Origin: Schizochytrium sp. TIO01
Taxonomy: Eukaryota; Sar; Bigyra; Thraustochytrida; Thraustochytriidae
Length of the DNA: 64,000 bases
NCBI GenBank assembly: GCA_004764695.1
Contig: SMSO01000037.1
Location: 2,974,337 to 3,038,336, forward strand
Reading direction: 5' to 3'
Part shown: piece after piece, positions 13,141 to 63,639 of the stretch
Layout: each line of letters opens with the position of its first letter
Numbering within the stretch: position 1 is the stretch's first letter
Notes under the pieces: generated by a model
What the model was told of the DNA's origin: nothing
Database searches by the model: none
Seen by the model: the letters and a program-made list of their open reading frames with translations, nothing else
Made by a program: the position numbers and the translations under genes

Positions 13141-15147
13141 CTACTGTTGGGATTCGACCAGCTTCTCATCAAGATTGAGCTCCTTGCCAAAGATTGCGCG
13201 GTAGATGCGCTCGATATCCTCCGCGGCGGACATGAAATGGGAGGTAGCATCAAGGCTTGAGACAATAAAGCACTTTGTTTTGGTACCATCGTCGACCGGA
13301 GCAAAAGTGTCTGAAACGGAGTCAAAACGCTCAGCAATGTCTCCCATGAGCTCAAATGCCTGCCGGAGCTCGGCAACGGGCTCGTTGGTCTCAACAGTAG
13401 TTGAAGCAATCGCCACATTAATTCCACGCGGGCATACATGGAGCGAGGCTCCCAACTCTGACAGGTACACATCCTGCTTCTTGCCCATAAGGTGCTTGGC
13501 AGGAAGAATAATCTGGCACGAGTCTCCAACAGTGCTCTTGATGGGTTTCTTGAGCAGACATACACTGCGCACCACAGAGCCGGTTTTGCGGGACATGTGC
13601 GCCGGGAAGTAAGATGCGTCACCAATGATGATTTTAGCCTTGGCAGCCATGTCTCCTACGCGTACTCCAATGGCCTGGCCAGAGCTCTGATCCATGATGA
13701 TCTCGTCGACGTCGTGACGCAACATTACGGTGCCACCATAGATTGCGGAGAGACGGCTGAAGCCCTCAGGGAGAGACGACAGTCCGTAGTTCGGGTAAAG
13801 GTACGGGCTGTCCTGTCCATATCGTCCAACGGACTTTCCGTACAGCTGGCATGCAAGCACGGTGGGCTCAGCAGGCTTGTCCAAATACGAGTCGTCGGTC
13901 TGCAGGGCCATGGCGTGTCCGAGAAAGTTCTGCGTGGTCTCGTCGAGGCCAAACTTGGCGTACAGCTCGCGCATGGTCATGTTGAGGAGGTCGTACTTCT
14001 GGGTCGACGTGTCGAACACAGGCTTCATGAAGGTGATCTTGAGTGGCCGCGGTGCCGAGCCGATGGCCTTCTTTACGTCCTCGTCAGTCTTGCCAAGCAT
14101 GGTCTGTCCATTGATCGAGTACAGCACATCACCCACTTCAACGCGCTTAGAGGCCTGCACGGGTCCCGGATTTCCGGAAGCGTCTGCCTGGAAGCTCTCA
14201 ACCGTAACAACAGTCTGGATGGGTCCGCCTTGCTCAGGCGGCACACCCTTCTTAACAGGGCGCGTCTTAACAACAATGCCGACGGAGCCTTCGCCGACCT
14301 CAACGTCTGTGGTCTCCGGGAAGACGGGTACGCCATATTTCTTCTCCATGGCACCCACAAGTGTCTCGCGCTTGGAATCAAAGCGAGTAATGAGAGCATC
14401 AACCTCATCCACCTTGCTGGCGTTGTGGGTCTGGAAGTAAGCCACAAGCGCGTTGCGGAATTCTTCTTTACTCAAGGTGTCTGCCGTACGCCGGGGGCAT
14501 TTATAGGTGCGCACGTAGTCTGCAAACTTGCGCAACGCGTTCTTTTGAAACAGGGATACCAACGAGGATGTGAGTGCCTCCGTCGGTGTGACCGGGAGCT
14601 TGTAGATCTTGCCAGAGTTGAAAACATAGGAGCCAGCGATGCCATTGAAGTCCATGTAGCGAGTGACGTCGGTCTGGATAAGCATCTTGACGAGCTTACC
14701 GTTGGCCATGAGCAACTTGGGCACCATGTCAACACAATAGTCCCTGCTGCGACCAAAGCGTTGCTCAGCGGACTCCTGGCTGAAGGTCTTGCTGTGCTTC
14801 TCGTAGAGCTCCTTGAGGTTCAAACTCGCGCAGTGTCCACCGTAGTAGGCGTTTCGGTCAATCTGCAGAACACGCATTCCACGAACGGACAAAAGACCTG
14901 CCAGAATGCACTCCTTCAGGCCCGTGGAGAGCACGATCGCGTCGTAGTCACCGTCCGCGAGCGGCTTGTACGAGGTGCCGTTGAGCACAACATTCGGAAG
15001 AGCACCGTCTTCAGTATGAGGATCAGCGGACTCGGATCCAGTGTGCGTCGAGGGTGCATCCGGGGCAGCCGCAGGGGCTTGCTGCTGGTCCACGCTCAGG
15101 TTCGACATGGCGTTGGCGACGTCGGCTTGCTGCTGCTCGCCCTCCAT
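13141..15147 (-). CDS. GDI1: Rab GDP dissociation inhibitor with PDZ-like insertion
   Basis: A 668-residue frame from ATG 15147 in a near-perfect Kozak context (GCCACCATGG). The open frame upstream has only a TTG and holds a (GAAC)n leader. GDI extracts prenylated GDP-bound Rab GTPases from membranes and recycles them. Residues 1-62 are a Gln/Ala/Ser-rich extension. The GDI core starts at about 66 with DYDAIVLSTGLKECIL and RNAYYGGHCASLNL, and resumes after 380 with MTMRELYAKFGLDE, SPYLYPNYGL, RLSAIYGGT and ASTTVETNEP. Between them, about residues 282-376 form a PDZ-like module (VEVGDVLYSINGQTMLGKTDEDV, then PRPLKITFMKP). Human GDI is about 447 residues; the insertion and N-terminus account for the excess. 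No intron is needed. Confidence 0.92.
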   Translation of the reverse strand: MEGEQQQADVANAMSNLSVDQQQAPAAAPDAPSTHTGSESADPHTEDGALPNVVLNGTSYKPLADGDYDAIVLSTGLKECILAGLLSVRGMRVLQIDRNAYYGGHCASLNLKELYEKHSKTFSQESAEQRFGRSRDYCVDMVPKLLMANGKLVKMLIQTDVTRYMDFNGIAGSYVFNSGKIYKLPVTPTEALTSSLVSLFQKNALRKFADYVRTYKCPRRTADTLSKEEFRNALVAYFQTHNASKVDEVDALITRFDSKRETLVGAMEKKYGVPVFPETTDVEVGEGSVGIVVKTRPVKKGVPPEQGGPIQTVVTVESFQADASGNPGPVQASKRVEVGDVLYSINGQTMLGKTDEDVKKAIGSAPRPLKITFMKPVFDTSTQKYDLLNMTMRELYAKFGLDETTQNFLGHAMALQTDDSYLDKPAEPTVLACQLYGKSVGRYGQDSPYLYPNYGLSSLPEGFSRLSAIYGGTVMLRHDVDEIIMDQSSGQAIGVRVGDMAAKAKIIIGDASYFPAHMSRKTGSVVRSVCLLKKPIKSTVGDSCQIILPAKHLMGKKQDVYLSELGASLHVCPRGINVAIASTTVETNEPVAELRQAFELMGDIAERFDSVSDTFAPVDDGTKTKCFIVSSLDATSHFMSAAEDIERIYRAIFGKELNLDEKLVESQQ
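14010..14310 (-). other. PDZ-like domain inside the GDI gene
   Basis: This part of the GDI gene (residues about 280-380) has the PDZ pattern of a glycine-containing carboxylate-binding turn region followed by VGDVLYSINGQ, a helix (TDEDVKKAIGS) and a last strand (PLKITFMKP). It interrupts the helical domain of the GDI fold between TRFDSKRETLVG and STQKYDLLNMTMREL. The frame is continuous across both borders, so it is translated as part of GDI. Confidence 0.65.
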
Positions 15148-15180
15148 GGTGGCTTCTTGTTGTTCTTTCTGCTCAACCGG

Positions 15181-15216
15181 ATGAACGAACGAACGAACGA
15201 ACGAATGAACGAACGG
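15181..15216. repeat. (GAAC)n microsatellite in GDI 5' leader
   Basis: Tetranucleotide run about 35 bp upstream of the GDI start codon, read as GTTC on the transcribed strand, so probably in the 5' UTR. Confidence 0.8.
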
Positions 15217-15722
15217 AGTATCTACCCAGATATCCGCTCCTGGCACAGAAACTGCAGTTCGCTGCGAGATTTGAGCTCGGGTGGTATCCAAATCCTGCTG
15301 CCGCTTTGCCTGGCACCAGATCGAGGACGAAGTTTAGGATTTGATCGAAGCTTTCTCTGCTGCTTACGATTGCTTCTTCTTTTAAAGATAGAGGCGCTCA
15401 TCAAATGGTCTCTATCGGATAGCTAGTCCTAACAATTTCTCTCTCTTCTCAAGCAGAGAGATAGATAGATAGATATAGATAGATATACTCGACCAGCTTC
15501 CACGCTGTATCTGCTGCATCCGTGAACTGTGAACGGGCTGATCGAGCGAAGAATTTGCGAATCTTCTGCATCTCTGCTCTTCGACTGCGGTGAACGCTCT
15601 TTGAGGCGCTTGCTTCAATGCGGTTTCTCGCCTCTTCGATGAACCCGATAGAGATAGGCTCAGATTTGGATGATTCACTTCAATGGAGATACCGATCAGT
15701 CAATCAGTCAATCAGTCAATCC

Positions 15723-28414: not shown

Positions 28415-31366
28415 TTACTCGTGCTCGGCGCCAGAGCGCCTGCGCTCGTGCTTGAGGTTCTCAAGGAACTCCTCAAGCTCCTTGATGCTAATGACACCAT
28501 CCCTGTCCTTGTCAATGCGGGAAATGAGCTCGCTGAGCTTCTCTTCAGAAAAGCTGCTGTCGTGGTTCTTGCGGAGAACGTCGCCAAGTGCCTTGCGGAT
28601 TTCCCAGCTGCTAATTTTTCCGTCACGGTCAAGATCAAGAACAGAGAGCTTGTCTCCGATGCGCTCGCCAGTCTCTTCGACATCGACCTCAAGTCGCTCA
28701 AGCATGCTGCGGAGCTTGTTCTTCAGGAGGGAACGCGCCCGCTTCTCAGGCTTGGCGCTCTCACCAGCGACTCCAACACCGGATTCATTCTCCACAATAC
28801 GACCCGTGTAGACTGCCTTAGCAGCCTCCATTTCCTCCTGCTTCTCAAGAATCTCCTCCAAGGTGTTGCGCTCCTCTTCCACGGGGGAGTCCGCAGCAAG
28901 GACCTTGATGGACTCCAGAGTACTCTCGAACACCTTGCGTGCCTCTTCCTCCATGACGGCATCTGTGGCGTCCTTGCGAATGCTGTTCTCATCGTCAGAG
29001 GTTGCAGAAGGTGCGGCTTCACCGGCAGCAGGTGCAGCCTTCTTATCCTGGGTGCTGGCGGCAGCAGCGGACACGGCAGCCTTGTCAGCCCGGCGAGAGA
29101 GCTCGGCTGCCTTGAGGGTCGCTGCCTTGCTGTCCTCGACGCCATCCTCCACATGAATAGGCTTGGCAAGACGGTCTTCATCCGGAGCGAGTTCTCCGGA
29201 TCCCACAGCCTTGGATGCAGCGTCCTGCTTGCGGAGCGCCTCAAGAGCAGAGGCGGCAGCTTCTTCCGGTGTTGCGATTTCGTCACGGGTAGCTGCGTTG
29301 GCGGCCGCGTTAGCGACGCTCTCAAGCTTGGCGTGATCGAGTTCTGCCTGAAGCTCTTCCTCAGCCTTCTTGCGGAGTTGTTCAATAAAGGCCTGTTTGC
29401 GGGACTTCTCCTTAATTTCCATTTCGATGAGATCGTTCTGGGCCTGGATGGCCTCAAGCTTGAGGCGCGAGATTGTCGCACGGTCCGCTGCGAGCTCCTT
29501 GTTCTCAGCACCCGCCACGAGAGCCTCCTGGAGCACATCCGAGTCCATCTGACTGATAGCCTCTGAGATGGCAAGCTCGATCTGCGACTCGTTGGTCTGC
29601 TCAAGCGTGAAGGCGCGGGAAAGGATGAGCAATGAGAGCGGTACGTTCTTGTTCACACTAAGTTCGATCCAACGCTTAAGCTGCATACGAAGCTGGTGCA
29701 TGGTGAGTCCCGTGGCACGCATTCCGCGATCCTCACAAGCAGCCTTAAGCTCGAGGAGGTTAAGAGAGTCAACACCTTCGAAGAAGATGGTGGCATCATC
29801 GTCGCGGAGGGAGTTAATCTTGGAGCGAAGCTGGAAACGAAGGAAGTTATCACCACCATAGGGCGGGAGACCCATGTAGCGGCAGAGGGAGACCAGCTGG
29901 GAGCGGGACATATTGTCGGTGGTAAGTTCGTCAGAGAAGAGCTTAGCCACCTTGAGAACGGTGGCTTCGTCAATGTCGCGGCCCATGCGCACACGCTCCA
30001 TAAAGTGTTGCACATCGTCGACGGAAATGGGGGAGCTACCTTCCTTATCCTTGACGCGGTCCTTGACCTTGTCCTCCATCTCAGCAACCATCTCCTGAAG
30101 GAAGCCAGCGATCTGCAGACGAAGCTTAAGCTGGCGCTTCATGTTCTCCTCACGCTTGAAAGAGTCCTGGAAGGTCGAGGGGAGCATGTTGGGGAAGATC
30201 TTGAGTGCCACAGGGAGGAGGAACTCCATGAAGGGGACAAGCACAAAGAAGAGAAAAGGTCCTACACGCGCAAGATCCGCAGTCGTCCGCACGAGCTGTC
30301 GGCGTTCTCTGCGTGTCAGCTGGTGTCCATTCAGCCTCTTGGTGAGGAGATTCCAGGAGGTCTTGACCTCCACTCCCAGAAGCTTGAATCCCATCCACGT
30401 GTGGTGCGCCATGTCCTTGGCTGCCTGCCATCCGTCGGCTCCCCACTTTTTGACAATCATTGGGTTCTTGATAAAAGTCAGGGTGATTTCGCCAGTCTTG
30501 CGCATGACCTTCTTCGTCGTATCTAGGGCTGACTGCAGCTTCGACTTCTCCTCACCTTCGTCGCTGCTAGACTTTCCACCATCCGTTGGTGTCGGCCTCA
30601 CGCGCTGGCCCTTGGCCGCCGCTTTCTTGGCCTCCATTGCTGCAGATCCCGGTTCTGCGCCGGTCTTGCTGCCCAACTTTGACGTTTTGGCGGCTTGTGC
30701 GTCAACCTTGCCAAGATCGTTCTTAAAGCCTTCTTTGGTTTGGTCACGAAGAGTGCGCGAGCTCATGCTCGGCTGCAGGCCGATGGACTTAACCAGGGAT
30801 TCCTGAACAGAGTCCTTGCGGCGCTGGGCCTGCTCCACGTCCAGACGGGCCTCCTTGAGTGCTTCCAGAGCGCTCGCAAGGTCTTCTGTCGCGGCGGATG
30901 GGGATGAGCTCGAAGCTGAGGATGGGGAGGTTGAGGAACGACGGTCAGATCCCTCGCGGGCATCACTAAGAAGAACAGAGGACACACGCAAACCACGGGA
31001 AGCCTCGAGACGCCATGCAGGAGCCGGGATGGCAGATATGCGACTCCATGGCAGCGACGTAGAAGCAAAGGCGGCTGCTGAGGAGGTGCGTGAGGAAGCA
31101 AGAGAAGAGGTGGAGAAGTATCTCGGTGCAGTGCGGAGACCTGCAGCGGCAGACGCTGCTGTGGACGCCGAGCGAGCGAGGGGAGTTGCTCCTGCTGCTG
31201 CTGTAGCTGCTACTGATGAACATGAAGATGCCAAGATTGACGCCGAGGTGGGAGATCCCACGGAAGGTCGACTGGCGGCGGCATGTGCTGCTGAAAGCAG
31301 ACCATGGCTAGGCGCCGCACGCCTACTGCTGGGGCCCAAGCTGGGCGCGAGAGCCGCCGCGCGCAT
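28415..31366 (-). CDS. LETM1: LETM1-type mitochondrial inner-membrane cation/proton exchanger
   Basis: A 983-residue frame from ATG 31366. The N-terminal 130 residues are Ala/Ser/Arg-rich with almost no acidic residues, as in a mitochondrial presequence. A helical linker follows (about 160-295). The LETM1 core spans about 295-570: NPMIVKKWGADGWQAAKDMA, RLNGHQLTRRERRQLVRT, one membrane helix at about 368-388 (VGPFLFFVLVPFMEFLLPV), then LPSTFQDSFKREENMKRQLK and CRYMGLPPYGGDNFLRFQLR. A long Ala/Glu-rich coiled region follows (about 590-890). Two C-terminal EF-hands have complete calcium loops (DLDRDGKISSWE at 911-922 and DKDRDGVISIKE). LETM1 proteins maintain mitochondrial K+/Ca2+ and volume homeostasis. 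Animal LETM1 is shorter (about 740 residues); the extra length is in the presequence and coil. Confidence 0.92.
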   Translation of the reverse strand: MRAAALAPSLGPSSRRAAPSHGLLSAAHAAASRPSVGSPTSASILASSCSSVAATAAAGATPLARSASTAASAAAGLRTAPRYFSTSSLASSRTSSAAAFASTSLPWSRISAIPAPAWRLEASRGLRVSSVLLSDAREGSDRRSSTSPSSASSSSPSAATEDLASALEALKEARLDVEQAQRRKDSVQESLVKSIGLQPSMSSRTLRDQTKEGFKNDLGKVDAQAAKTSKLGSKTGAEPGSAAMEAKKAAAKGQRVRPTPTDGGKSSSDEGEEKSKLQSALDTTKKVMRKTGEITLTFIKNPMIVKKWGADGWQAAKDMAHHTWMGFKLLGVEVKTSWNLLTKRLNGHQLTRRERRQLVRTTADLARVGPFLFFVLVPFMEFLLPVALKIFPNMLPSTFQDSFKREENMKRQLKLRLQIAGFLQEMVAEMEDKVKDRVKDKEGSSPISVDDVQHFMERVRMGRDIDEATVLKVAKLFSDELTTDNMSRSQLVSLCRYMGLPPYGGDNFLRFQLRSKINSLRDDDATIFFEGVDSLNLLELKAACEDRGMRATGLTMHQLRMQLKRWIELSVNKNVPLSLLILSRAFTLEQTNESQIELAISEAISQMDSDVLQEALVAGAENKELAADRATISRLKLEAIQAQNDLIEMEIKEKSRKQAFIEQLRKKAEEELQAELDHAKLESVANAAANAATRDEIATPEEAAASALEALRKQDAASKAVGSGELAPDEDRLAKPIHVEDGVEDSKAATLKAAELSRRADKAAVSAAAASTQDKKAAPAAGEAAPSATSDDENSIRKDATDAVMEEEARKVFESTLESIKVLAADSPVEEERNTLEEILEKQEEMEAAKAVYTGRIVENESGVGVAGESAKPEKRARSLLKNKLRSMLERLEVDVEETGERIGDKLSVLDLDRDGKISSWEIRKALGDVLRKNHDSSFSEEKLSELISRIDKDRDGVISIKELEEFLENLKHERRRSGAEHE

Positions 31367-31552
31367 GCTCTTGCTCGCTCGGGTGGATTCTCGTTTGTCT
31401 GAGGATGATGCTGTTCGACTCAGTCAGTGTTGGAGCGAATGAATGTAAATAAATAGTAATTACTAGTCTACATATTGTTGAATTGAAAAGAAGACAACTT
31501 TGAAAAGAAAAGAGAAAAAGGTATTTATTTATTTAATCAATCACTTTTGTTG

Positions 31553-42864: not shown

Positions 42865-44115
42865 TTAGTATGAGGACTCGTCGCTGAAGAGAGCAGAGAC
42901 GGACTTCTTCTCGTGGATGCGTTTAATGGCACCGGCAATGAGCTTGCCAACAGAGAGGGTGCGGATCTTCTCATTCTTGGCAGACTCCTCACTGAGCGGG
43001 ATGGTGTTGGTAATGCACACCTCCTCGAGTGCCGAGGCGGCAATGCGAGACGATGCGGGACCGGAAAAGATACCGTGGGAAGCGAAAGCGTAGACGCGCT
43101 TGGCTCCGTGGGCAGAGAGTTCGTTGGCGGCCTTGCAGAGGGTACCGGCAGTGTCGATCATGTCATCAACAATAATCACATCGGCATCCTGAACGGAACC
43201 AACCAAGTCCATGCGCTCAATTTCACCAGGCTTGTGGCGCTGCTTGATGATCATGGCAAGGCCGGCCTCAATTCCGTACTGCTTGGCGAGGCCCTCACGG
43301 AACTTCTTGGCACGGTATACACCACCGGCATCCGGTGAGACGATCACAGGGTTCTCAAGGCCAAGAGTTCCGAAGTGCTTGACACCAACGGTACCACCGT
43401 CAAGGTTATCGACGGGCACGCGGGGTCCGAAGAAGCCCTGGATCTGGCCACAGTGAAGGTCGACGGCGACGACGCGGTCAACACCCATGGCCTCAAGGAG
43501 GCGTGCGACATCAGCGGCAGAGATGGGCACACGGGCAGTCATCTTACGATCCTGGCGAGCGTAGCCGTAGTAAGGGATGACGGCAGTAATGCGGCGGGCG
43601 GAAGCTCTCCTCATGGTGGAGATCATGAGCATGAGCTCCATGAGGTTCTCGTTCACAGGGGTGCAGGTGGGCTGGATAATGTAGACGTCCTTGCCACGGA
43701 CGTTCTCGTGGACCATGACGTTGACCTCACCATCCTCGAACTTGGAGACAGTGACCTTGCCCATCTCAACACCAAGCTGGTTTGCAACTTCGTTGGCAAG
43801 TTCCTTGTTAGCGTTACCGCAAAAGAGCTTGAGGGTGTTGGTGGCCTTCTCGACCTGCTGGGGGGCCTTGGCCACCTCAGGGACCTCCTCCTTCTTCACC
43901 TCGCGCTGCTCCTCCATCAAAGCGAAGCCAGTGGCGGCAAACATGCCGGCGACGGCGACTCCGGAGGCAGCGGCAAAGCGTGAGCTACGGTAGAAGGGTC
44001 TCGAAGCGCCTTCGGTGGCCTGGCTAGCAGAGGCCGAAAAGACGCGGGAGGGGACGCGGAGAGACACACGAGCAGCCACGAAGGCGCTGCGGGCGAGGGT
44101 CTTAGAGGCGAGCAT
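42865..44115 (-). CDS. PRPS: Ribose-phosphate pyrophosphokinase with mitochondrial presequence
   Basis: A 416-residue frame from ATG 44115. It makes PRPP from ribose 5-phosphate and ATP for nucleotide, His and Trp synthesis. Residues 1-45 are Arg/Ser/Ala-rich without acidic residues (presequence-like). A hydrophobic segment at about 47-66 (FAAASGVAVAGMFAATGFAL) precedes a charged linker. The catalytic domain begins at about 94 (LKLFCGNANKELA) and is complete: SKFEDGEVNVMVHENVRGKD, the ATP-site YYGYARQDRK (182-191), DLHCGQIQGFF (219-229), SPDAGG (260-265), the PRPP loop VIIVDDMIDTAGTL (313-326) and HGIFSGPA. The last residues (SVSALFS) match the usual C-terminus. Cytosolic PRPS is about 318 residues, so about 95 residues are extra. 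It may be tethered to the inner membrane. Confidence 0.93.
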   Translation of the reverse strand: MLASKTLARSAFVAARVSLRVPSRVFSASASQATEGASRPFYRSSRFAAASGVAVAGMFAATGFALMEEQREVKKEEVPEVAKAPQQVEKATNTLKLFCGNANKELANEVANQLGVEMGKVTVSKFEDGEVNVMVHENVRGKDVYIIQPTCTPVNENLMELMLMISTMRRASARRITAVIPYYGYARQDRKMTARVPISAADVARLLEAMGVDRVVAVDLHCGQIQGFFGPRVPVDNLDGGTVGVKHFGTLGLENPVIVSPDAGGVYRAKKFREGLAKQYGIEAGLAMIIKQRHKPGEIERMDLVGSVQDADVIIVDDMIDTAGTLCKAANELSAHGAKRVYAFASHGIFSGPASSRIAASALEEVCITNTIPLSEESAKNEKIRTLSVGKLIAGAIKRIHEKKSVSALFSDESSY

Positions 44116-45081
44116 CGTGCTGATGTATTTTGACTATTGACGTTTATGAAGTATGAGCTTGTGTAGAAGCAACGGGTAGAGAAAGGTATGAAACGACGGA
44201 GCTGTCTGTCTTGCTTCGAGGTAGCAACAGAGAAGGTCGGTCTTTGAGGCTGTTGAGTAGCTACACGAGTGGTGGCGGTGCCAGATGAACTACGAGAGTG
44301 AACTCGAGTTGCTGCTTGTGGGGCGGCGGGGGAAGGAGGGAGGGAAGGGAGTAGAAGGGGACGCGAGCTGCTGAGTCGCAGTCGCTGCCTAACTACTGCC
44401 TGCTGCCTGCCGACGCCTGAGCGAGCTAGCTAGCGCTTTGCTGCCTGCCTGCTCCAGCCAGCTCCGCGCCTGCCATACATATCCCCTTTCTTTCATTTCC
44501 TCTTTTTAAATGCCTAAGTAGCATCTACTTCCTAGCAGTACCATAACAATAAATAGTAGCAAACCTTCCTTAGTTTTCATTTCGTTTTCTCTTCTCATTT
44601 CTTTCCCCCAAACAAACAAAATCATTCTATTTTAAAATAAAATCAGTATATACTGTTTGTTTGTTTGTTTGTTTGTTTGTTAGATTGAAAAATAAATGGA
44701 ACTACATGAAAGAAAACCATTTTTTAACTAGCCAGCCCTAATGGAGCTTAGCTATCTAATTTTCATATTTTTTTTAAGAAATAAAATTAATTGCTACCGT
44801 AGGTATACATATCTATGGTGTTCCTACCAATAAAACCCGTCGAAAAGACACAGTCTCCAGACCAGAAGGTCCTCCAGAATGGTGTAGAGACCTCGAGGCT
44901 GCGTACGGAGGTCTGCGAAGGCCTCCTCCAGTGCCATGCATAACTAAGTGCGCCACTGGAGAAGAGGGGCCTCCACTATGCCCGTGAAACTGACTGTGCG
45001 GCCGAGAAGTCTTCATCGCTGTATTCCTCGCGGTTCCTGATCATCTCACGATTAATCAATAGAGGGAGGAAGGTCTGAGAA

Positions 45082-54356: not shown

Positions 54357-57098
54357 ATGGACAACCTCACGGAGATTCTGCTTGCGACGCAGAACAACGA
54401 TGCCAACGCACGTGTGCCGGCCGAAAAGGCCCTCGCGGAGTTTGAGCAGAACAGCTTCCCGCAATATCTCGTGGCATTGGCCCGTGAGATGGGCGATGAA
54501 AACAAGCCAGAGAACGCCCGTACTCTCGCTGCTCTCCAGGCCAAGCGTATCCTCACAGGTAACGATGACTTCAGCATTCGCAGGAAGCACGACCAATGGG
54601 CTGAGACTGTCCAGCCCGAGGCCAAGAACATGATCAAGCAGACCATCCTCCAAGTCCTCGCATCCCAAAACCAGAATGTTGCCCGCCAGGCCGCACAGGT
54701 CATGGAGGCTATTGCCAAGTTTGACCTCTCTAACGATGAGTGGAACGAGCTCCCCTCTCAGCTTGTTCAGGTATTTGACCAGGTCCACAGCCGTAACGCA
54801 GACCACATCATTGGACCTCTTCTTGGTTTGGGATACTTTGCCTCCACCGCTGTGGAAACTGGATATGGTCTTGACGAGAACGCCATTAACCAACTTCTTA
54901 GCAAGATCTCCGTTGGTATGAGTGCTGACCGCCCCCGCGATGTTCAGGTCGCTGCCACTGATGCTCTTGCAGACACTCTCGACTTTGCTCGTCACAACAT
55001 GGAGAACCAGCAGGAGCGCAACGTTATTATGGAGATGATCTTGCGTATGACGCAGTCTCCCCACGCCGAGGTCCGCGAACACGCCTTTCAGTGCCTCACC
55101 ACCGCTCTTGAGCTCTATTACCACCTTCTCAAGGACTACATGCAAGCCATTTATGACATTACCACTAAGGCCATCCAGAATGTTGATGAGGAGCGTGTTG
55201 CTATGCAGGCATTGAACTTTTGGTCCGAAATGGCCTTTGAGGAGGCCGAGCGCCGTCTCGGAGACCAGAACAGCGAGGACCCATCTAGCGTTTACCTTGG
55301 CTTTGTCGATACTGTTAAGGAACCTCTTTGCAAGCTCGTCTTGGAGTTCGCCTTGCTGCAGCAAGATGAGGAGCCCGATGAAGATGAGTCCTCAGACAAC
55401 ACCCTCTATGGTGCTGCCGAGCACTGCTTTGTCAACTTGAGCTCTTGCTTAGGCCAGGCTATTATCCCCTACACCATTAACTTCACTTCTCAAAATGTCG
55501 TGTCCCCGGACTGGCGCCGCCGTCAGGCTGCCATCTTTGCCTTTGGTGCCATCCTTCGCGATGCCTCTAGCCATGAGATGAGCTCTCCCATCAACGAGAT
55601 TATGCCTGTTCTTGTGCAGCGCATGCTCGTTAATACCCCTCAGGAGCTCCAGGGCTCCAACGCCCAGCCTGAGCCAGTCGCCACTGTTCGTGAGACCGCA
55701 GCCTGGGCCATCTCTGTTATCTGCTCTGCGCACATCGCCTGCGTCAACAACAGCAACATCAAGTTGATGCTTTCCAGTACCTACGAGGCACTTCGCGATC
55801 GCCCTCGTGTGGCTCACATGGCCGCCGCCGCTATTTATGCCTTTGCTAATGCTTTTGCCGGCCAGGCCGACCAGCAGACCAACCAGCTCAGTGGTGAACT
55901 CATGCAGACCTTTGGAAGTGCCCTCTGGGACGCCGCTCGCCGTGAGGATAGCGACCAGTGGCAACTCATGGAGGATGCCTATGAGGCTCTCATTCGCCTC
56001 ATTGAGGTAAGTGCTGTTGACATGCGCCAGTACGTGGGCTCGGTTCTTCTTCACACCAGTCTTGTCCGCCTCAGCGAGATCCGCTCTGGAGAGGTCCAAG
56101 ACCAAACTGGTTTTCAGGAAGTTGAGCTCTGTGGTGTCGTCAGCGTGTGCATTATCAAGCTTGAGGAGTACCTCCTACAGATCCCGGTTAACAATGGCGC
56201 CCCATCTGACAACCCTCAGATGGCTGTACCTGATCAGATCATGCAAACCATGATTGAGATTCTTAACCGCCCCAACTCCAACGCTCATCCCGATGCTCTT
56301 CATGCGATTGGTGAAGTGACCCGCGTTGTCGGATCCAACTTTAGGCGCTACATGCAGAGCGTTGTTCCCCTGGTGTTGCGAGGACTCAACGCCCGCGAGA
56401 ACTCTCAAGTTTGTATCGCTGCTGTCCGTCTCTGTGCAGATGTCTGCAATGCGCTGAAGGAACAGCCTGAGTTGGTCCAGCTCACTCCGGAGCTCATGAA
56501 GCTCATCTACGCCAACCTTGGATCTGATGACCTCCAGTCTGAAGTGAAGCCCCCGCATTTGACAATTCTTGGAGATATTGCCGATGCGATTGGTGCTGAT
56601 AACTTTAAGCCATACTTCAGCCAGGCTATGCAAACTGCTCTATCCGCTGCTAATGTCGGTCTTGAAATTACCGAAGCTGAGTATGCCGATGACCTCAACA
56701 GCCTTCGTGAGGCTGCCCTCGAGGCCATGGAGCTTATGCTCCTCGACGTTGATAACATGTCCATCCAACCGTTCCTTGAGCAGATCTTCTTCCTTGCTCG
56801 CTCTATCTCTCAGGAGATCGTGGATCCTCGCAACTATTACGAGAACAAGGACCCGTCCATCATCCCCCCCGATCTTGGAAGTCTCACTAACCTGCCCTAC
56901 AAGGTGGCTGATGCTGTTGTGAAGAGTATCCTCAACATTCTTGGTGATGTGACTAAGCAGGTTGGCGATCCCTTCCGCAAGCCTCTGCGCGAGAGTATGC
57001 AGCAACTTACACCCCTCGTTCAGTATGCTAAGCAGTCCTCGAACAGTGATTTAGTTGATGCTGCGGATTACGCTCTCAGCCAGATTGGCAGCAACTAA
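54357..57098 (+). CDS. KPNB1: Importin subunit beta-1 (karyopherin beta)
   Basis: A 913-residue uninterrupted frame from ATG 54357 (GAACCATGG context). It is an all-helical HEAT-repeat protein with the importin beta layout. The N-terminal Ran-binding region starts MDNLTEILLATQNND and includes ALQAKRILTG. HEAT repeats follow throughout, with an acidic loop at about 337-348 (DEEPDEDESSDN), just before the repeat reading NVVSPDWRRRQAAIFAFGAIL. This acidic loop contacts the importin alpha IBB domain in known importins. The C-terminal repeats end at QIGSN. Importin beta carries cargo, directly or through importin alpha, across the nuclear pore and is released by RanGTP. Human importin beta is 876 residues and yeast Kap95 861, so the gene is full length. 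It converges on the fusion gene downstream. Confidence 0.93.
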   Translation: MDNLTEILLATQNNDANARVPAEKALAEFEQNSFPQYLVALAREMGDENKPENARTLAALQAKRILTGNDDFSIRRKHDQWAETVQPEAKNMIKQTILQVLASQNQNVARQAAQVMEAIAKFDLSNDEWNELPSQLVQVFDQVHSRNADHIIGPLLGLGYFASTAVETGYGLDENAINQLLSKISVGMSADRPRDVQVAATDALADTLDFARHNMENQQERNVIMEMILRMTQSPHAEVREHAFQCLTTALELYYHLLKDYMQAIYDITTKAIQNVDEERVAMQALNFWSEMAFEEAERRLGDQNSEDPSSVYLGFVDTVKEPLCKLVLEFALLQQDEEPDEDESSDNTLYGAAEHCFVNLSSCLGQAIIPYTINFTSQNVVSPDWRRRQAAIFAFGAILRDASSHEMSSPINEIMPVLVQRMLVNTPQELQGSNAQPEPVATVRETAAWAISVICSAHIACVNNSNIKLMLSSTYEALRDRPRVAHMAAAAIYAFANAFAGQADQQTNQLSGELMQTFGSALWDAARREDSDQWQLMEDAYEALIRLIEVSAVDMRQYVGSVLLHTSLVRLSEIRSGEVQDQTGFQEVELCGVVSVCIIKLEEYLLQIPVNNGAPSDNPQMAVPDQIMQTMIEILNRPNSNAHPDALHAIGEVTRVVGSNFRRYMQSVVPLVLRGLNARENSQVCIAAVRLCADVCNALKEQPELVQLTPELMKLIYANLGSDDLQSEVKPPHLTILGDIADAIGADNFKPYFSQAMQTALSAANVGLEITEAEYADDLNSLREAALEAMELMLLDVDNMSIQPFLEQIFFLARSISQEIVDPRNYYENKDPSIIPPDLGSLTNLPYKVADAVVKSILNILGDVTKQVGDPFRKPLRESMQQLTPLVQYAKQSSNSDLVDAADYALSQIGSN

Positions 57099-58490: not shown

Positions 58491-61400
58491 TTAGCCTATC
58501 CTTTCTATCACAAAGGAGCCAAAGGCACGCAGCATCATCTTCGGGAAAGAGTCTGGAATGACACTATCTAACCTGGCCCATGCTTGCTCTACCTCATTCT
58601 CAGCCTGCTGCACGCATTCATCAATTGCACCGAGCTCCTCCAGCTGCTGAATGATTGCATCCACCACAGCTTGGTCTTGTGGCTTCGAACGGATTGTATC
58701 CCAAAGACTGCGACGATCCTCTTGGCTTGATAGCCGAGCCATGGCTTTGGCTACTGGAAATGTTACCTTGCCATCCACAATATCTTCCCCTAGTCTCTTT
58801 AGAGAAGTACCGAGCTTGAGCTTGTCGGTTTCCTTGGCGAAGAGTCCTCGTAAGTTGAGCACATCATCCATAATTTGAAACGCGATTCCAATACTTTCAA
58901 AGTAACGGCCCATCGCTTCAATCTGTTCCTCGCTACCTTTGCCCACAAGAGCCCCCATACGAGCTAATGTACCTGCGGGGACTGCTGTTTTCAGCATGTG
59001 AATACCAAGGATGCGTTCTTGAAGCAAGCTTGCATCACCTGACTCAACAACCTCATCCATCATGTAATCCAGACCGTTAATGTCCAGCGCTTGGCCGGCA
59101 TGTCCTCCGCGCAGAGCAGCAAAATACAAAGCATAGCATCTGTTCAACTCTTCAGGAGTAAGCCCCGGAGCACGAATCATTTGCTCACATTGGAAGTACG
59201 CTGCAGTACCTGCGTTGATACACAATGCATCACCATATACGCGGTGAGCAGCAGGCCCGCCACGTCGAGTTTCTGAGTGATCTTGTATATCATCCACAAT
59301 AAGCGATCCGACGTGCAAAAACTCAGGCATAGCGACCCAGTCAACAAAATCACGCGAGTCGCCACCTACACAGTCCACGCAAGCCAGAGCACCATAGGAG
59401 CGCCATGATTTGCCACCCCTGTCTGCAATAAGACGAACAGGGGCAATTAACGTCTGGCCAAGCACGTCCAAGGGAACTCCAGACATGTAATGTGGTGTGT
59501 CTTTGGTTGCAATTAGTTCAAGTGCCTCTTCATATGTTGGGTGCAAAGGGTACATGCTCTGCACACTTGCTCGAACTTTCTTGCCCACATTCTTGAAGAA
59601 TGTCTTGATGTTTTGATCTTCTCCAAATCCATTTCTTTCTACATAGGCGAGACCCTTCACAGGTGTCCCATACTTTGTGCCATAAACCTTGCAACGACCT
59701 TCCCAAAATGCAGGCTTTGCAATCAATGTCATCAATTCTTGATCTGGAAAGCTAGCTTCCACGCATAGGTCCAAACCTACCCCTGGAACCTGCAAATGAT
59801 ATTTAAGCGGGTAGGAGACAAATGTTCGTACGGAGGTCCACGTTGCCTCCCGAGATGAGTCTGCTGTGAAGGAAACTCCGTGAGAGCCGTCAAACTGTGT
59901 TCGATTTCCCTCAGCATCAATCACAATAGCTTTGACCTCCATTATCTCATTCTTGAGCGGGTTGACTAAAAGTGCAGCAGAGATCTCCGTGTTATCGTCT
60001 AGTTGTGCTGCAACCCAGTTCCATGCATATCTTCCTGTATGGTGTTCACCTAGACGATCCGCGTGACCTTTACCCTCTACTTCAGGTTCTGAAGAGGTAT
60101 CCGACCTCGCGGTTTGTGCATCGTGATCGTGCTCGTCGTCATGACTGTTTGACTTGCTATTGATACGTTCCTCCTCTGGGACGCCGCCGAATTCGTGGTC
60201 ATACCATCCTGAGCCATGGACGACGGTGAGTTGCTCTGCTTCTGCCTTCTCCATTGCCGCACCACGTTTGACTGGGATTGGGACATGCATTGAGCCAGTG
60301 ACCTTGCAACGAGTGATACAGTAATAAAACATGTCATCTCCTTCACGGCCTTTCACTACGCCATGGTCGCCGTGTCGGATAGGTGCTTTTTGCGGCACAA
60401 ATTTAAGGTCCAGGTTGCACGGGAGCTTGTAATGGGAAGCGCGAAGATGATAAAGTCCATCAGATGTTTTGTGAAGAGAGCCGCCTTCGTAGTCAAGGCG
60501 AAGCTCCTCTCCATCGGTTTTGACAACCGCATCACGAGAAAGGAGACGATCTGGTAAAGGAACATTGCCCTTTTCCAAGATCTCCCGAAAAGCTCGCTGG
60601 AGGATAAGGTCTTGCGTCCCATGCCCCTCGTCAAGAGCTTTGAGGATACTCCGAGGAGCGTCCTGTTCTAGGATAACATCTGCATAGTATTTATTCTTTT
60701 CCACATCACTTACTGCCCAGGTGAGCGCATGGCTAAAGTGCCTCTTTCCGGAATGTTTGTCGTAGTATTTAAAGAACCGAAAGAAACACACAAAGACACT
60801 CAGTTTGCGGTTTGCTCCTGTAGGGTCTGCTGCACAGTCAAGATGAGCATGATAATACCACCACTCTGTCTGACTGCGAGGGTGTGGAAGATCGTGAATA
60901 GCTAAGTCGATCGGACCCATGCGCCCAGGCCAATCTACACGTAAAGGCGGCTCTAAGAGTGCCTCTATAGCTTCTTGCGTTTGAGGTCCCCGAAGGAGCA
61001 GAACGCGCTGCAGATAGGCCTCAACCCTGGCTACATCATTTGCACCCAAAGATGAACGAAATCCCCAGAGCAGTTTGGACAGTGCAATAATCGAAACCAG
61101 TTGCATCAGGGCAGCCAAAGCAGCAAATTCCACACGAAGTCCCATTTCTTCCAGCCCTGTTGCAGCAACCGCAACATCCACGGCAACACAAGCAACCACA
61201 AATGCTGTCAAAACAAAGTAGTTGAACGTGTACTCGCTGTCAGAGTAAATATTCGAACCTGAAGAGTCTCTGCGACCTGGAAATGCGAGCACCTGATCGA
61301 GATCCTGCGGATTGCGCTTGGATTCTACACGTTGCAAACTATGCAGCTGTCGATGGAACGCGGTCAAATCCGCCTCGCTGCGCACAACCTTGACCGGATT

Positions 61401-61565
61401 TCCATCACGGTCACCTTCGATCAAAAACCCAAGGACTTTGGACCCATCGCGAGAGGTTACAGTTTCCGTGCCTTTAACGCGCACGAGATATTGCCCTCTG
61501 CCACGACTACTTTTTTCGCAATGCTGGCCTGAATCTTTGTGTGGCGCTTTACCACGCGCCGCCAT
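58491..61565 (-). CDS. PX-like / CrtC(AttH)-like lipocalin / trans-prenyl diphosphate synthase fusion
   Basis: A 1024-residue frame from ATG 61565; an in-frame TAG lies upstream, so this is the first ATG. Residues about 24-98 look like a PX phosphoinositide-binding domain (QYLVRVKG, SEADLTAFHRQLHSL). Two membrane helices follow at about 115-136 and 147-166. Residues about 212-650 form a CrtC/AttH-type double-lipocalin domain with its hallmarks TEWWYYHAHL (233-242), GSGWYDHEFG (451-460) and PAFWEGRCKVYG-GTPVKGLAYVERNG. Residues about 690-1020 are a trans-isoprenyl diphosphate synthase: GGKSWRS, the first Asp-rich motif in LIVDDIQDHSETRRGGP (DDIQD at 758-762), a GQALD motif, KTAV, and the second Asp-rich motif FQIMDDVLNL (900-901). 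CrtC hydrates carotenoid double bonds; relatives are hydratases or cyclases. The chain could make and then modify one isoprenoid. Product unknown; a long-chain or C20 synthase activity is possible. Confidence 0.85.
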   Translation of the reverse strand: MAARGKAPHKDSGQHCEKSSRGRGQYLVRVKGTETVTSRDGSKVLGFLIEGDRDGNPVKVVRSEADLTAFHRQLHSLQRVESKRNPQDLDQVLAFPGRRDSSGSNIYSDSEYTFNYFVLTAFVVACVAVDVAVAATGLEEMGLRVEFAALAALMQLVSIIALSKLLWGFRSSLGANDVARVEAYLQRVLLLRGPQTQEAIEALLEPPLRVDWPGRMGPIDLAIHDLPHPRSQTEWWYYHAHLDCAADPTGANRKLSVFVCFFRFFKYYDKHSGKRHFSHALTWAVSDVEKNKYYADVILEQDAPRSILKALDEGHGTQDLILQRAFREILEKGNVPLPDRLLSRDAVVKTDGEELRLDYEGGSLHKTSDGLYHLRASHYKLPCNLDLKFVPQKAPIRHGDHGVVKGREGDDMFYYCITRCKVTGSMHVPIPVKRGAAMEKAEAEQLTVVHGSGWYDHEFGGVPEEERINSKSNSHDDEHDHDAQTARSDTSSEPEVEGKGHADRLGEHHTGRYAWNWVAAQLDDNTEISAALLVNPLKNEIMEVKAIVIDAEGNRTQFDGSHGVSFTADSSREATWTSVRTFVSYPLKYHLQVPGVGLDLCVEASFPDQELMTLIAKPAFWEGRCKVYGTKYGTPVKGLAYVERNGFGEDQNIKTFFKNVGKKVRASVQSMYPLHPTYEEALELIATKDTPHYMSGVPLDVLGQTLIAPVRLIADRGGKSWRSYGALACVDCVGGDSRDFVDWVAMPEFLHVGSLIVDDIQDHSETRRGGPAAHRVYGDALCINAGTAAYFQCEQMIRAPGLTPEELNRCYALYFAALRGGHAGQALDINGLDYMMDEVVESGDASLLQERILGIHMLKTAVPAGTLARMGALVGKGSEEQIEAMGRYFESIGIAFQIMDDVLNLRGLFAKETDKLKLGTSLKRLGEDIVDGKVTFPVAKAMARLSSQEDRRSLWDTIRSKPQDQAVVDAIIQQLEELGAIDECVQQAENEVEQAWARLDSVIPDSFPKMMLRAFGSFVIERIG

Positions 61566-63639
61566 CGCCCTTGACAACCAGCTGGCGGGTGCTTGCTACT
61601 GCACCTCAGCCCTAGTTGGTTGAGTTCAAGCTTTGTGGTACACGTGAATCAAGATTATGCGACTTGACCGATCCTCGCCAGATCGATCGTTGATTCACGA
61701 TATGATAATCCTGATAATCTTGAGTAGTTTTTAGTTACACTTATGATGATGTCTGTTTATGGAAATAACAGTTTTTAAAAGTCTGTTTGCTTTATTTTGT
61801 TTAGAGGCTTTCTCTTTCTCTTTTTCTATTTGGTTGACCGCAAATTCGAGTTCTTCTATTAATCTTTCAGTACGGTCTCTGCAGAAGGTACCCACTGCCG
61901 CTTGCTATGTTTGTTGCTGATACCCTTCTCAACTTGACTTTTATTCTACTATACCCCGAGGCATTCATAAGCTTGTTATTGTTCGTTCCCACTTGCCTGG
62001 TACTAACCACTATTTTCTGAAAAAATAAAATAAAGAATTCTGTAAAAACAAGCCAAAAAAGGAAAAAATTCCGACAGTTGATTTGAGTCTAAAGCTGTTG
62101 AAGATGCGCTTTCGTATATTTATGACAAGTTGAAACCTGCGCGGCGTTCCAAAGGGTGCAGCACTTGAGTGACCAGGAATCATTCGTTTACGCGCATTTA
62201 ATGTATAGCGACTAGAAAGCTTGAAGATGCGATAACCGGTCCTATATCTTCCTTGTATCCTGTTAAACTCTGCTCTTATGAGATTTATTGGAATGTTATT
62301 TTATATGACGCAGGATTGCGACGGCGACGGCATCTGCGAAGGCGTGCAGAAGAGGCGGTATCTGCGAAAACATGCAGGAAAACGCACCATTGCATCCGAA
62401 GCACAGAACGCCAGCCTACCATGTTGATACATGCACATTTCTTGAAAATATATGCTGTAGGCCTCTTCGCGACGCCCCATCATCTTCTTTTATTTTTGAT
62501 TGTCCTCTTTTAATGCTGATTTGTTTTGGTCTTTTTTGTCCTTTTTTGTCATTCGTACCCAAATCTGAAACGCGCTTGTCCGGACGAATTCACAATAGCG
62601 CAAGATCTATGACTATCACAGTGAAGAACCCTTCGTACCTCAAAGTTCTCCAAAACATTCTCAGACTACTTGCTGGCTGAAAAGGCGATGCAGCCAAGAG
62701 ACCACGTGAAGTTAAGCTGCGTCGAAAACCTGAGGGCGCTGTTCTGAAGATGGAGCTCGCTCGAATGATGATGGTGTTGGTTGATGATGCAGTAGGAATC
62801 GTGCCGAATTAGAGTTTGAGGCGGTACTGGCCGTGCTGCTGACGACGACGCTGATCAAGATGACGAGGATTAGGGTGATGATGATAGTTTTCATGGTACG
62901 AACGAACAATCGTGCGCGTGCCTGCACGGGCTCAGGACCAAAACAATCTTCGAGGAGACAACTTAAGCAATAGAAGTCGGTTCTGCACAAGATTATTCTT
63001 CAGCTCAAGGAAATCTTCAACATGGGCCAAGTCCACTGGTTCTCTGACCAGGTTGTTGAAGGAGCTCTTGTTTGTTTGTTTATTTGTTTGTTTGTCCACC
63101 TTCAAGGCGTCTTTATTCCAGTGGTAGCTCTCATTCTTACCTAACAGCTCTAACTAAGCTGCACAATACCTGTAGGCATTATTGGTCGCAAGGTCTTGAC
63201 TCCGTTCGCCAACTTTGGCATTGTCCTAAAATAGTCTCGCCATGCACCAAGGTTCAGTCATTCGCACAAGAAGAAATGTTGTTGAGGTCCGTTTATTGTA
63301 TTATGCCACTTTCCAGGTCTCTGCAAAACCACAACTTCAGGCAACCGTGATATTCGTACAGTTGCACTAGCACGGCGCGAGTAGCCAGCGCTCGCTCGCA
63401 TCATCAGCTAACCTGCAGCAATGCAGTGCTAGTCATTCCGGTGCTTAGGAAAAGGTTGTACATTCTTCGAGGCGACAGAAAGGAGGGGACTCAGGAAACT
63501 AGGGGAAAACATGAAGTATCTATGTACCTATTAGATAGTACGTACCATACATAGATACATCAATGTGAAACAGCGAAGACTGTCGGACGCAGCTTCGCTG
63601 AGACTTGAACTGGTGCAAATCCACATTAGGAAAGGAAAC
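61566..63639. other. Intergenic between divergent genes
   Basis: Shared upstream region of the fusion gene (minus) and the hydrolase (plus). It is AT-rich at 61730-62080. Apart from the small signal-peptide frame listed next, no gene is seen; a TTTG run lies at about 63070-63095. Confidence 0.45.
62712..62894 (-). CDS. Possible small secreted peptide
   Basis: An ATG at 62894 (ACCATGAAAA context) opens a 60-residue frame. The N-terminus MKTIIITLILVILISVVVSS is a textbook signal sequence, with a charged start, a 17-residue hydrophobic core and small residues for cleavage (about residue 20). The remaining 40 residues are polar (Ser/Asn, then HHQPTPSSFERAPSSEQRP). The signal-like part arises from ATC/GTC-rich DNA, so a chance origin is possible. 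No family recognised. It lies between two divergent genes. Confidence 0.35.
   Translation of the reverse strand: MKTIIITLILVILISVVVSSTASTASNSNSARFLLHHQPTPSSFERAPSSEQRPQVFDAA

Follow-up and report, generated by a model that had tools for sequence, protein, structure and literature searches.

Gene structure and domain composition

Here we present a fusion gene of the thraustochytrid Schizochytrium sp. TIO01, found in a 64,000-nucleotide stretch of contig SMSO01000037.1 (positions 2,974,337 to 3,038,336 of the forward strand; hereafter the window, to whose numbering all coordinates refer unless a locus is named). The gene occupies 58491..61565 on the minus strand, as do all of its features given below, and joins CrtC/AttH-type lipocalin domains to a complete trans-prenyl diphosphate synthase, a fusion confirmed in this analysis. 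The predicted single uninterrupted reading frame was borne out: the stop-to-stop limits in the raw sequence are 58491-61595, the open reading frame (ORF) spans 58491-61577, and the first in-frame ATG, at 61565, opens a frame of 1024 codons plus a stop that runs to 58491 and has collinear full-length homologues. Three Pfam domains of the 1024-residue protein each exceed the curated cut-offs: CrtC (PF07143) at residues 233-460 (60186..60869; E-value 5.9e-14), Lipocalin_9 (PF17186) at residues 512-646 (59628..60032; 3e-17) and polyprenyl_synt (PF00348) at residues 706-974 (58644..59450; 4.7e-43). The original prediction, which had placed a CrtC/AttH part within residues 212-650, agrees with the profile search, where the two lipocalin domains together cover 233-646; the motifs that it had named (EWWY, GWYDHEFG, WEG...YVE, DDIQD and IMDDVLN) are all present, and its polyprenyl synthase is the PF00348 domain. 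The AlphaFold2 model of the whole protein has a predicted local distance difference test score (pLDDT) of 87.8 and a predicted template modelling score (pTM) of 0.85.

The prenyl synthase half

The synthase half carries the GGKxxR, DDxxD, RR and GQxxD motifs, the Lys and the second DDxx(D/N), in an all-helical fold, and 12 of the 14 tallied catalytic residues are invariant in an alignment of 140 sequences. Both Asp-rich motifs are intact throughout that alignment, with the three Asp of the first, DDIQD (residues 758-762, 59280..59294), and the two Asp of the second, DDVLN (residues 900-904, 58854..58868), kept in 140/140. Small residues, G753 and S754, occupy positions -5 and -4 of the first Asp motif. 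The floor of the chain-length pocket is represented by Y790-F791 (59193..59198), kept in 137 and 139 of the 140 sequences, and by H822 (59100..59102), kept in all; these are the counterparts of Y107, F108 and H139 of the yeast geranylgeranyl diphosphate (GGPP) synthase (GGPPS), a correspondence counted by hand in a region that HMMER aligns at 90 against 90 residues. Alignment with the GGPP synthase 9HJS likewise matches Tyr-Phe and His to the synthase half. By the criterion drawn from the available part of PMC9729869, the five residues G753, S754, Y790, F791 and H822 are of the type-III-like GGPPS kind; the same paper describes that mutation of the yeast trio Tyr107/Phe108/His139 gives a longer product. 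Because the synthase half keeps the residues that end chain growth at C20 in type-III GGPP synthases, it is likely to make GGPP (C20).

Six further prenyl-synthase matches were found in the genome; L002, one of the six, looks on our reading like a conventional type-III GGPPS. On contigs C10 and C24, frames for a long-chain-type prenyl synthase (L003 and L004) encode an identical protein sequence, which may reflect either a recent duplication or a retained haplotype.

The lipocalin half

The window gene is the only CrtC match and the only Lipocalin_9 match in the genome (64 Mb, 37 contigs). The N-terminal lipocalin domain has the fold of 2ICH and 7A0Q, and a structure search with the AlphaFold2 model showed that the lipocalin half as a whole folds like AttH and kievitone hydratase; it is AttH-like in both sequence and fold. 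It also has what is looked for in a CrtC, namely both Pfam domains, an Asp to donate the proton and two Trp. Asp456, presumed to be that donor, lies in the WYDHEFG motif (residues 454-460, 60186..60206), and the two Trp lie in the WNW motif (residues 515-517, 60015..60023), in which W515 and W517 correspond to CrtC W283 and W285 (PMC12402844). The equivalence of D456, W515 and W517 with RgCrtC D268, W283 and W285 was assigned through the D-x14-W-x-W spacing in 2ICH and not through an alignment with RgCrtC. D456 is kept in 135/140 aligned sequences, and Asp456, Trp454 and the WxW in 134 to 138 of 140. Between the two motifs runs an insert (residues 461-512, 60030..60185) that is short or absent in bacterial relatives and disordered in its middle, with pLDDT <50 at residues 479-503.

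We know of no function assigned to AttH (2ICH). At another locus, L090:4691-9056, an AttH-like gene annotated as a carotenoid 1,2-hydratase stands directly after genes for an ABC ATPase and an FtsX-type permease. CghA, a lipocalin-like protein that we place, presumably, in the CrtC-type family, reportedly assists a Diels-Alder reaction. A Diels-Alderase that surfaced in the literature proved unrelated, as far as the available part of PMC9095873 describes it.

Distribution and phylogeny

The original prediction had suggested looking for the same fusion in related genomes, and relatives were found. Out of 8000 candidates scored in a protein search, 327 were retained, of which 120 were listed and counted: all three Pfam domains are present in 117/120, only PF07143 is missing from the remaining three, and 30 have a PX domain besides. 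The nearest named relative among those listed is a Hondaea fermentalgiana protein with 71% identity. A scan of genome contigs with a close query added 11 relatives, five from Myxococcales, one from Polyangiaceae, two from Spirosoma and three from Flavobacterium. Matches were found in 44/377 whole genomes of Myxococcota (some over part of the length) and in 6/395 of Bacteroidia, five with both halves and the sixth with the synthase part only; here Myxococcota denotes the phylum of a Myxococcales genome and Bacteroidia the class of Spirosoma. Plasmid records contributed a relative from the cyanobacterium Tolypothrix together with a divergent one from Streptomyces canus, and one relative is named by its source as Halocatena halophila, which we take to be a haloarchaeon. 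No viral copy was confirmed in the search, and PHROGs gave no match. Of the 173 proteins that came from a third protein search, many are pieces of the fusion and some contain CrtC only (for example P0180, a cyanobacterial protein of 378 aa). Full-text literature searches in a collection without most subscription papers and without preprints, judged by title and opening of the abstract for the matches listed, often a small share of the total, gave no article that named the fusion.

A FastTree phylogeny of 140 core sequences, with its root set arbitrarily on the Streptomyces protein, resolved three clades, with four sequences outside them. One holds 27 sequences (support 1.0) and is named four-domain for the architecture described below; another, of 51 (0.953), includes every named protist, with most members from unlabelled contigs; and the last, of 58 (0.961), is mostly Myxococcota or Bacteroidia where labelled. 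The designation protist clade rests on PX and on those members that are named or come from EukProt. When each half was used alone for a tree, the four-domain clade came out unchanged, and the protist clade differed by the addition of P0096 alone. The two halves have therefore travelled together, and we read the enzyme fusion as real, old and widespread, with a single ancestral fusion event.

These data bear on the proposal, put forward with the original prediction, that two genes were merged through a missing stop or a faulty gene model. The single open frame in the raw sequence, the domains shared by 117 of the 120 listed homologues, and the two large clades recovered by the trees of both domains make it scarcely credible. 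P0004, from the source mmetsp, and P0042, a GECG01 record from eukprot, are relatives that each consist of a single ORF; we take their sources to be transcriptome collections.

The genomes also allowed us to weigh a role in carotenoid synthesis, in which the chain would pair a carotenoid 1,2-hydratase with a GGPP synthase for phytoene. In purple bacteria CrtC does act on carotenoids (PMC4717167), and crtI is above cut-off in 31/51 fusion-bearing genomes. Among Myxococcota, however, crtI frequency showed no clear link with the fusion (27/45 fusion-positive against 20/40 fusion-negative genomes, Fisher p 0.39, in drafts uncorrected for completeness or phylogeny). Among thraustochytrids, the available part of PMC10016063 gives crtIBY as the sole carotenoid route in A. 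limacinum, and that of PMC10141969 describes another A. limacinum GGPP synthase, of 417 aa and with no predicted membrane helix, that was tested for carotenoids and supported beta-carotene synthesis in E. coli. The separate type-III-like frame L002 in the TIO01 genome adds to this, and we regard a carotenoid role for the window gene as highly unlikely.

The N-terminal region

Ahead of the lipocalin half, the original prediction had seen two membrane helices and a PX-like region. The two-helix tether holds up: hydropathy gives membrane-type segments at residues 113-141 and 142-163, in agreement with AlphaFold2 helices at 110-135 and 144-167, which lie in a low-confidence stretch (block pLDDT about 50-76). 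We place a membrane hairpin at residues 110-167 (61065..61238).

On either side of the hairpin lies sequence that resembles a PX domain, comprising three strands and a helix at residues 28-93 (61287..61484) and the last helices at residues 168-205 (60951..61064). In hhalign comparisons, residues 28-205 match the PX domains of protist-clade members at E 2.2e-9 with the shared junction included, and PX-bearing relatives at E 5.6e-6 over 65 columns after the junction was trimmed, against E 0.1 for the best of 30 control slices. The trimmed score, set against those controls, argues for common descent with the PX-bearing relatives, and the strand-strand-strand-helix order predicted in the AlphaFold2 model supports the same view. 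Pfam, on the other hand, does not call the domain: the window protein has no PX entry at E 1, and PX is absent at E 10 in 8/8 scanned relatives without PX, where HMMER filters drop weak matches; it is found in relative P0013. The PX phosphoinositide motif, R(R/K)YxxF, is missing, the WRRYSEF of P0013 being aligned with VRSEADL of the window protein. No protein titled as PX appears among the listed Foldseek and VIA matches, which was not counted as evidence against PX. PX domains have a membrane loop, or dip, at the place where the hairpin sits in the window protein. Together, these results support a divergent PX-like part that has lost the phosphoinositide motif and holds the hairpin inside it.

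By hydropathy, membrane-type segments occur in all ten nearest-relative N-termini of at least 100 residues (the window protein included), in 0/17 PX-type N-termini and in 1/15 of the others. P0010 has such segments, yet it clusters in the tree with PX-bearing proteins, which allows more than one order of gain.

Four-domain relatives and gene neighbourhoods

In the Tolypothrix protein (L088:12682-17208, cyanobacterial plasmid) and in that of L060:6575-11101 (Myxococcota genome; near-identical to a protein named Polyangiaceae), a sulfotransferase, a glycosyltransferase, CrtC and the prenyl synthase are joined in one chain of 1509 residues, with the glycosyltransferase, GT28/EryCIII-like, lying together with the sulfotransferase on the N-terminal side. 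A search with L060 gave 48 relatives; a sulfotransferase domain is present in 16 of them, a glycosyltransferase domain in 18 and both in 11; at least 700 residues precede the core in 17 of the 25 four-domain-clade proteins on that list. ABC exporter genes, one of them named devC, stand on both sides of the Tolypothrix gene, and an APS kinase gene 11 kb away, past transposon genes, may be unrelated.

In another part of the tree, three loci from Spirosoma (L013:5041-13793), a second Bacteroidia genome (L059:3968-12283) and a Myxococcota genome (L086:7705-14573) have, near the fusion and on its strand, P450 genes and a transferase gene of the GT28 or MGDG-synthase type (the Spirosoma P450 scanned by Pfam being the copy in L014), with an LMF1-family gene additionally in L013 and L059. 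These sets look like biosynthetic clusters common to several phyla. The four-domain chains and the glycosyltransferase/P450 loci, which we regard as the strongest clue, make sense if the product of the fusion carries a hydroxyl for glycosylation, and the bacterial and one archaeal four-domain relatives point to a lipid or terpenoid pathway that is not yet characterised. GT4-type transferase genes, picked by eye and with no background rate, stand near the fusion in the Myxococcota loci L076:11106-12488, L077:11112-12443 and L087:5527-6945, two of these three loci being nearly identical. BLAST grouping of ORFs from 35 loci gave no partner conserved across the tree beyond some larger groups in which real and spurious high-GC frames are mixed, the three glycosyltransferase/P450 loci and a short gene. 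This short gene borders the end of the fusion, or overlaps it, in 10/35 loci, on the same strand in eight (L064:9357-10004 and nine further Myxococcota loci), and the copies scanned have no Pfam or NCBIfam match.

The exporter genes belong to the evidence for another view of the lipocalin half, as a non-catalytic carrier that would hand on the hydrophobic product of the synthase, whether to a membrane, to an exporter or to the enzyme that follows. AttH, the nearest solved relative, suits such a role, as do an AttH-type gene standing with ABC ATPase and FtsX-type genes, the fusion of CrtC to FtsX/MacB-type domains in P0151, the exporters flanking the Tolypothrix four-domain gene and the membrane tether of the window protein. 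Svf1 lipocalin matches below cut-off point the same way (2/8 relatives without Pfam PX, at 0.005 and 0.089, and the sole PX-bearing relative scanned, at 0.021). The conservation of Asp456, Trp454 and the WxW, however, is in our judgement more than a carrier needs, and in the four-domain proteins the barrel is flanked by the synthase and the glycosyltransferase, a place at which a newly made hydroxyl would be needed. We consider a pure carrier unlikely.

In the window itself, an uninterrupted importin-beta gene of 913 codons (54357-57098, plus strand) adjoins the fusion and is convergent to it. Further single-frame genes, all on the minus strand, encode an LETM1-like protein with EF hands (28418-31423), a ribose-phosphate pyrophosphokinase (42868-44133) and a GDP dissociation inhibitor (13144-15333). 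None of the 10 window ORFs scanned is a terpenoid gene, six having no Pfam match. ABC families were matched neither in these ORFs nor in the adjoining importin-beta gene, a scan that short or spliced genes could escape; the adjacent ABC transporter genes of AttH were thus not found beside the window gene.

Proposed function

From the domain set, fold, conservation, distribution and architectures observed above, we infer a scheme that specifies chain length, hydration, substrate hand-over, and the membrane and organelle setting, in which the window protein would be a membrane-anchored bifunctional isoprenoid enzyme that makes GGPP and hydrates it in the lipocalin barrel. The C-terminal domain would condense isopentenyl diphosphate (IPP) with allylic diphosphates to GGPP (C20). 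GGPP, or an alcohol derived from it, would then enter the tandem-lipocalin domain, where Asp456 would protonate the terminal C=C, Trp side chains would steady the cation, and water would quench it to give a terminally hydroxylated C20 isoprenoid. In bacteria this product would go on to be glycosylated and sulfated; in thraustochytrids the hairpin inside the decayed PX-like domain would tie the enzyme to a membrane. CrtC has been found to hydrate C12-C20 terpenes besides lycopene (PMC12402844, PMC4717167).

Several observations weigh against this scheme. By sequence, AttH 2ICH (3.2e-60) is the closest of the solved relatives, with kievitone hydratase second (1.8e-19), and AttH shares the Asp and the Trp, so these residues fail to discriminate. 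The Asp is missing in 3/27 four-domain proteins. A glycosyltransferase could act on a primary prenol without any hydration, and the shared glycosyltransferase/P450 families, in the BLAST grouping, occur in 3/35 loci and not in the other 32, with no background rate for comparison. To our knowledge, no activity is known for any member of the fusion family. Alanine mutants of RgCrtC at four residues, H239, W241 and Y266 among them, are dead, and these three positions, counted back from the Asp through loops that vary, would fall on Y414, C416 and W454 in the window protein. Kievitone hydratase, an active hydratase, also differs at them (Glu, Gly and Trp), and the two observations offset each other. 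The original idea is partly supported: a synthase that supplies the CrtC-type domain fits the four-domain relatives and the glycosyltransferase/P450 neighbours, whereas the suggested hydration or cyclisation and channelling stay conjectural, the lipocalin half being closest in sequence to AttH. The occurrence of the pair in bacteria, the loss of the motif from the PX-like part with the hairpin inside it, and the predicted C20 chain length were not foreseen in it.

The same Asp could instead trigger cyclisation of GGPP, which would make the whole a bifunctional terpene synthase like the fungal PvCPS with an unrelated partner fold. The authors of PMC4717167 compared the Asp of CrtC with its squalene-hopene cyclase counterpart. 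A terpene scaffold would suit the P450 genes that three loci have close to the fusion. A 103-residue synthase piece scores best, though narrowly, against copalyl diphosphate synthase chains (5.8e-10, against 3.4e-9 for GGPP synthases), and two of the entries so matched, 6V0K and 7S0M, are titled by Foldseek as the PvCPS prenyltransferase domain. We know of no isoprenoid cyclase in the CrtC family, however; its characterised members hydrate, or rearrange epoxides, according to the available part of PMC6013536. Cyclisation seems improbable to us, and hydration by a bifunctional enzyme an even bet.

On a broader scale, and more tentatively, since we put it somewhat short of an even chance, the fusion may represent an unrecognised class of isoprenoid assembly line in bacteria, an archaeon and protists, with a GGPP synthase and a lipocalin-fold prenyl hydratase or cyclase as its core. 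In one clade a single chain, lengthened by the glycosyltransferase and the sulfotransferase, would lead from IPP to a sulfated isoprenoid glycoside; thraustochytrids and their relatives would have taken up the core once and joined it to PX, and in one branch the PX loop would have become a transmembrane hairpin. If this is right, the range of second enzymes found in fusions with prenyl synthases gains a lipocalin-fold member, and the gene becomes a candidate for making hydroxylated or glycosylated C20 isoprenoids, as yet undescribed, of marine protists and myxobacteria. The function of AttH-type lipocalins would become testable through the substrate supplier in the same chain, and a route would be suggested from a peripheral phosphoinositide-binding domain to an integral membrane anchor.

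Comparison with known systems

CrtC itself (PF07143, e.g. of Rubrivivax gelatinosus) shares with the fusion the Pfam family and, by spacing, the Asp and the WxW, but H239, W241 and Y266 appear replaced in the fusion, and crtI is not clearly commoner in fusion genomes. No CrtC fused to a prenyl synthase is known to us. AttH (2ICH, Nitrosomonas europaea NE1406) is, among solved structures, closest to the lipocalin half in sequence and fold but has no synthase domain; an AttH-like gene of Caballeronia adjoins ABC transporter genes.

In the fungal PvCPS and fusicoccadiene synthase, as in the fusion, a prenyl synthase stands on the C-terminal side of another isoprenoid enzyme in one chain, and sequences of this kind match the synthase core of the fusion. 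Their partner is a terpene cyclase domain, not a lipocalin barrel; no class I or II terpene cyclase domain stands beside the synthase of the window protein in the Pfam listing at E 1. Kievitone hydratase (7A0Q, 7A0T), at 19% identity to the lipocalin half in a structural alignment, is by contrast a stand-alone secreted fungal enzyme with an isoflavonoid substrate (PMC5805349). Within the thraustochytrids, CrtIBY likewise fuses isoprenoid steps in one chain, as described in the available parts of PMC10016063 and PMC5924542, but the enzymes joined are different ones, and CrtIBY acts on GGPP to give beta-carotene.

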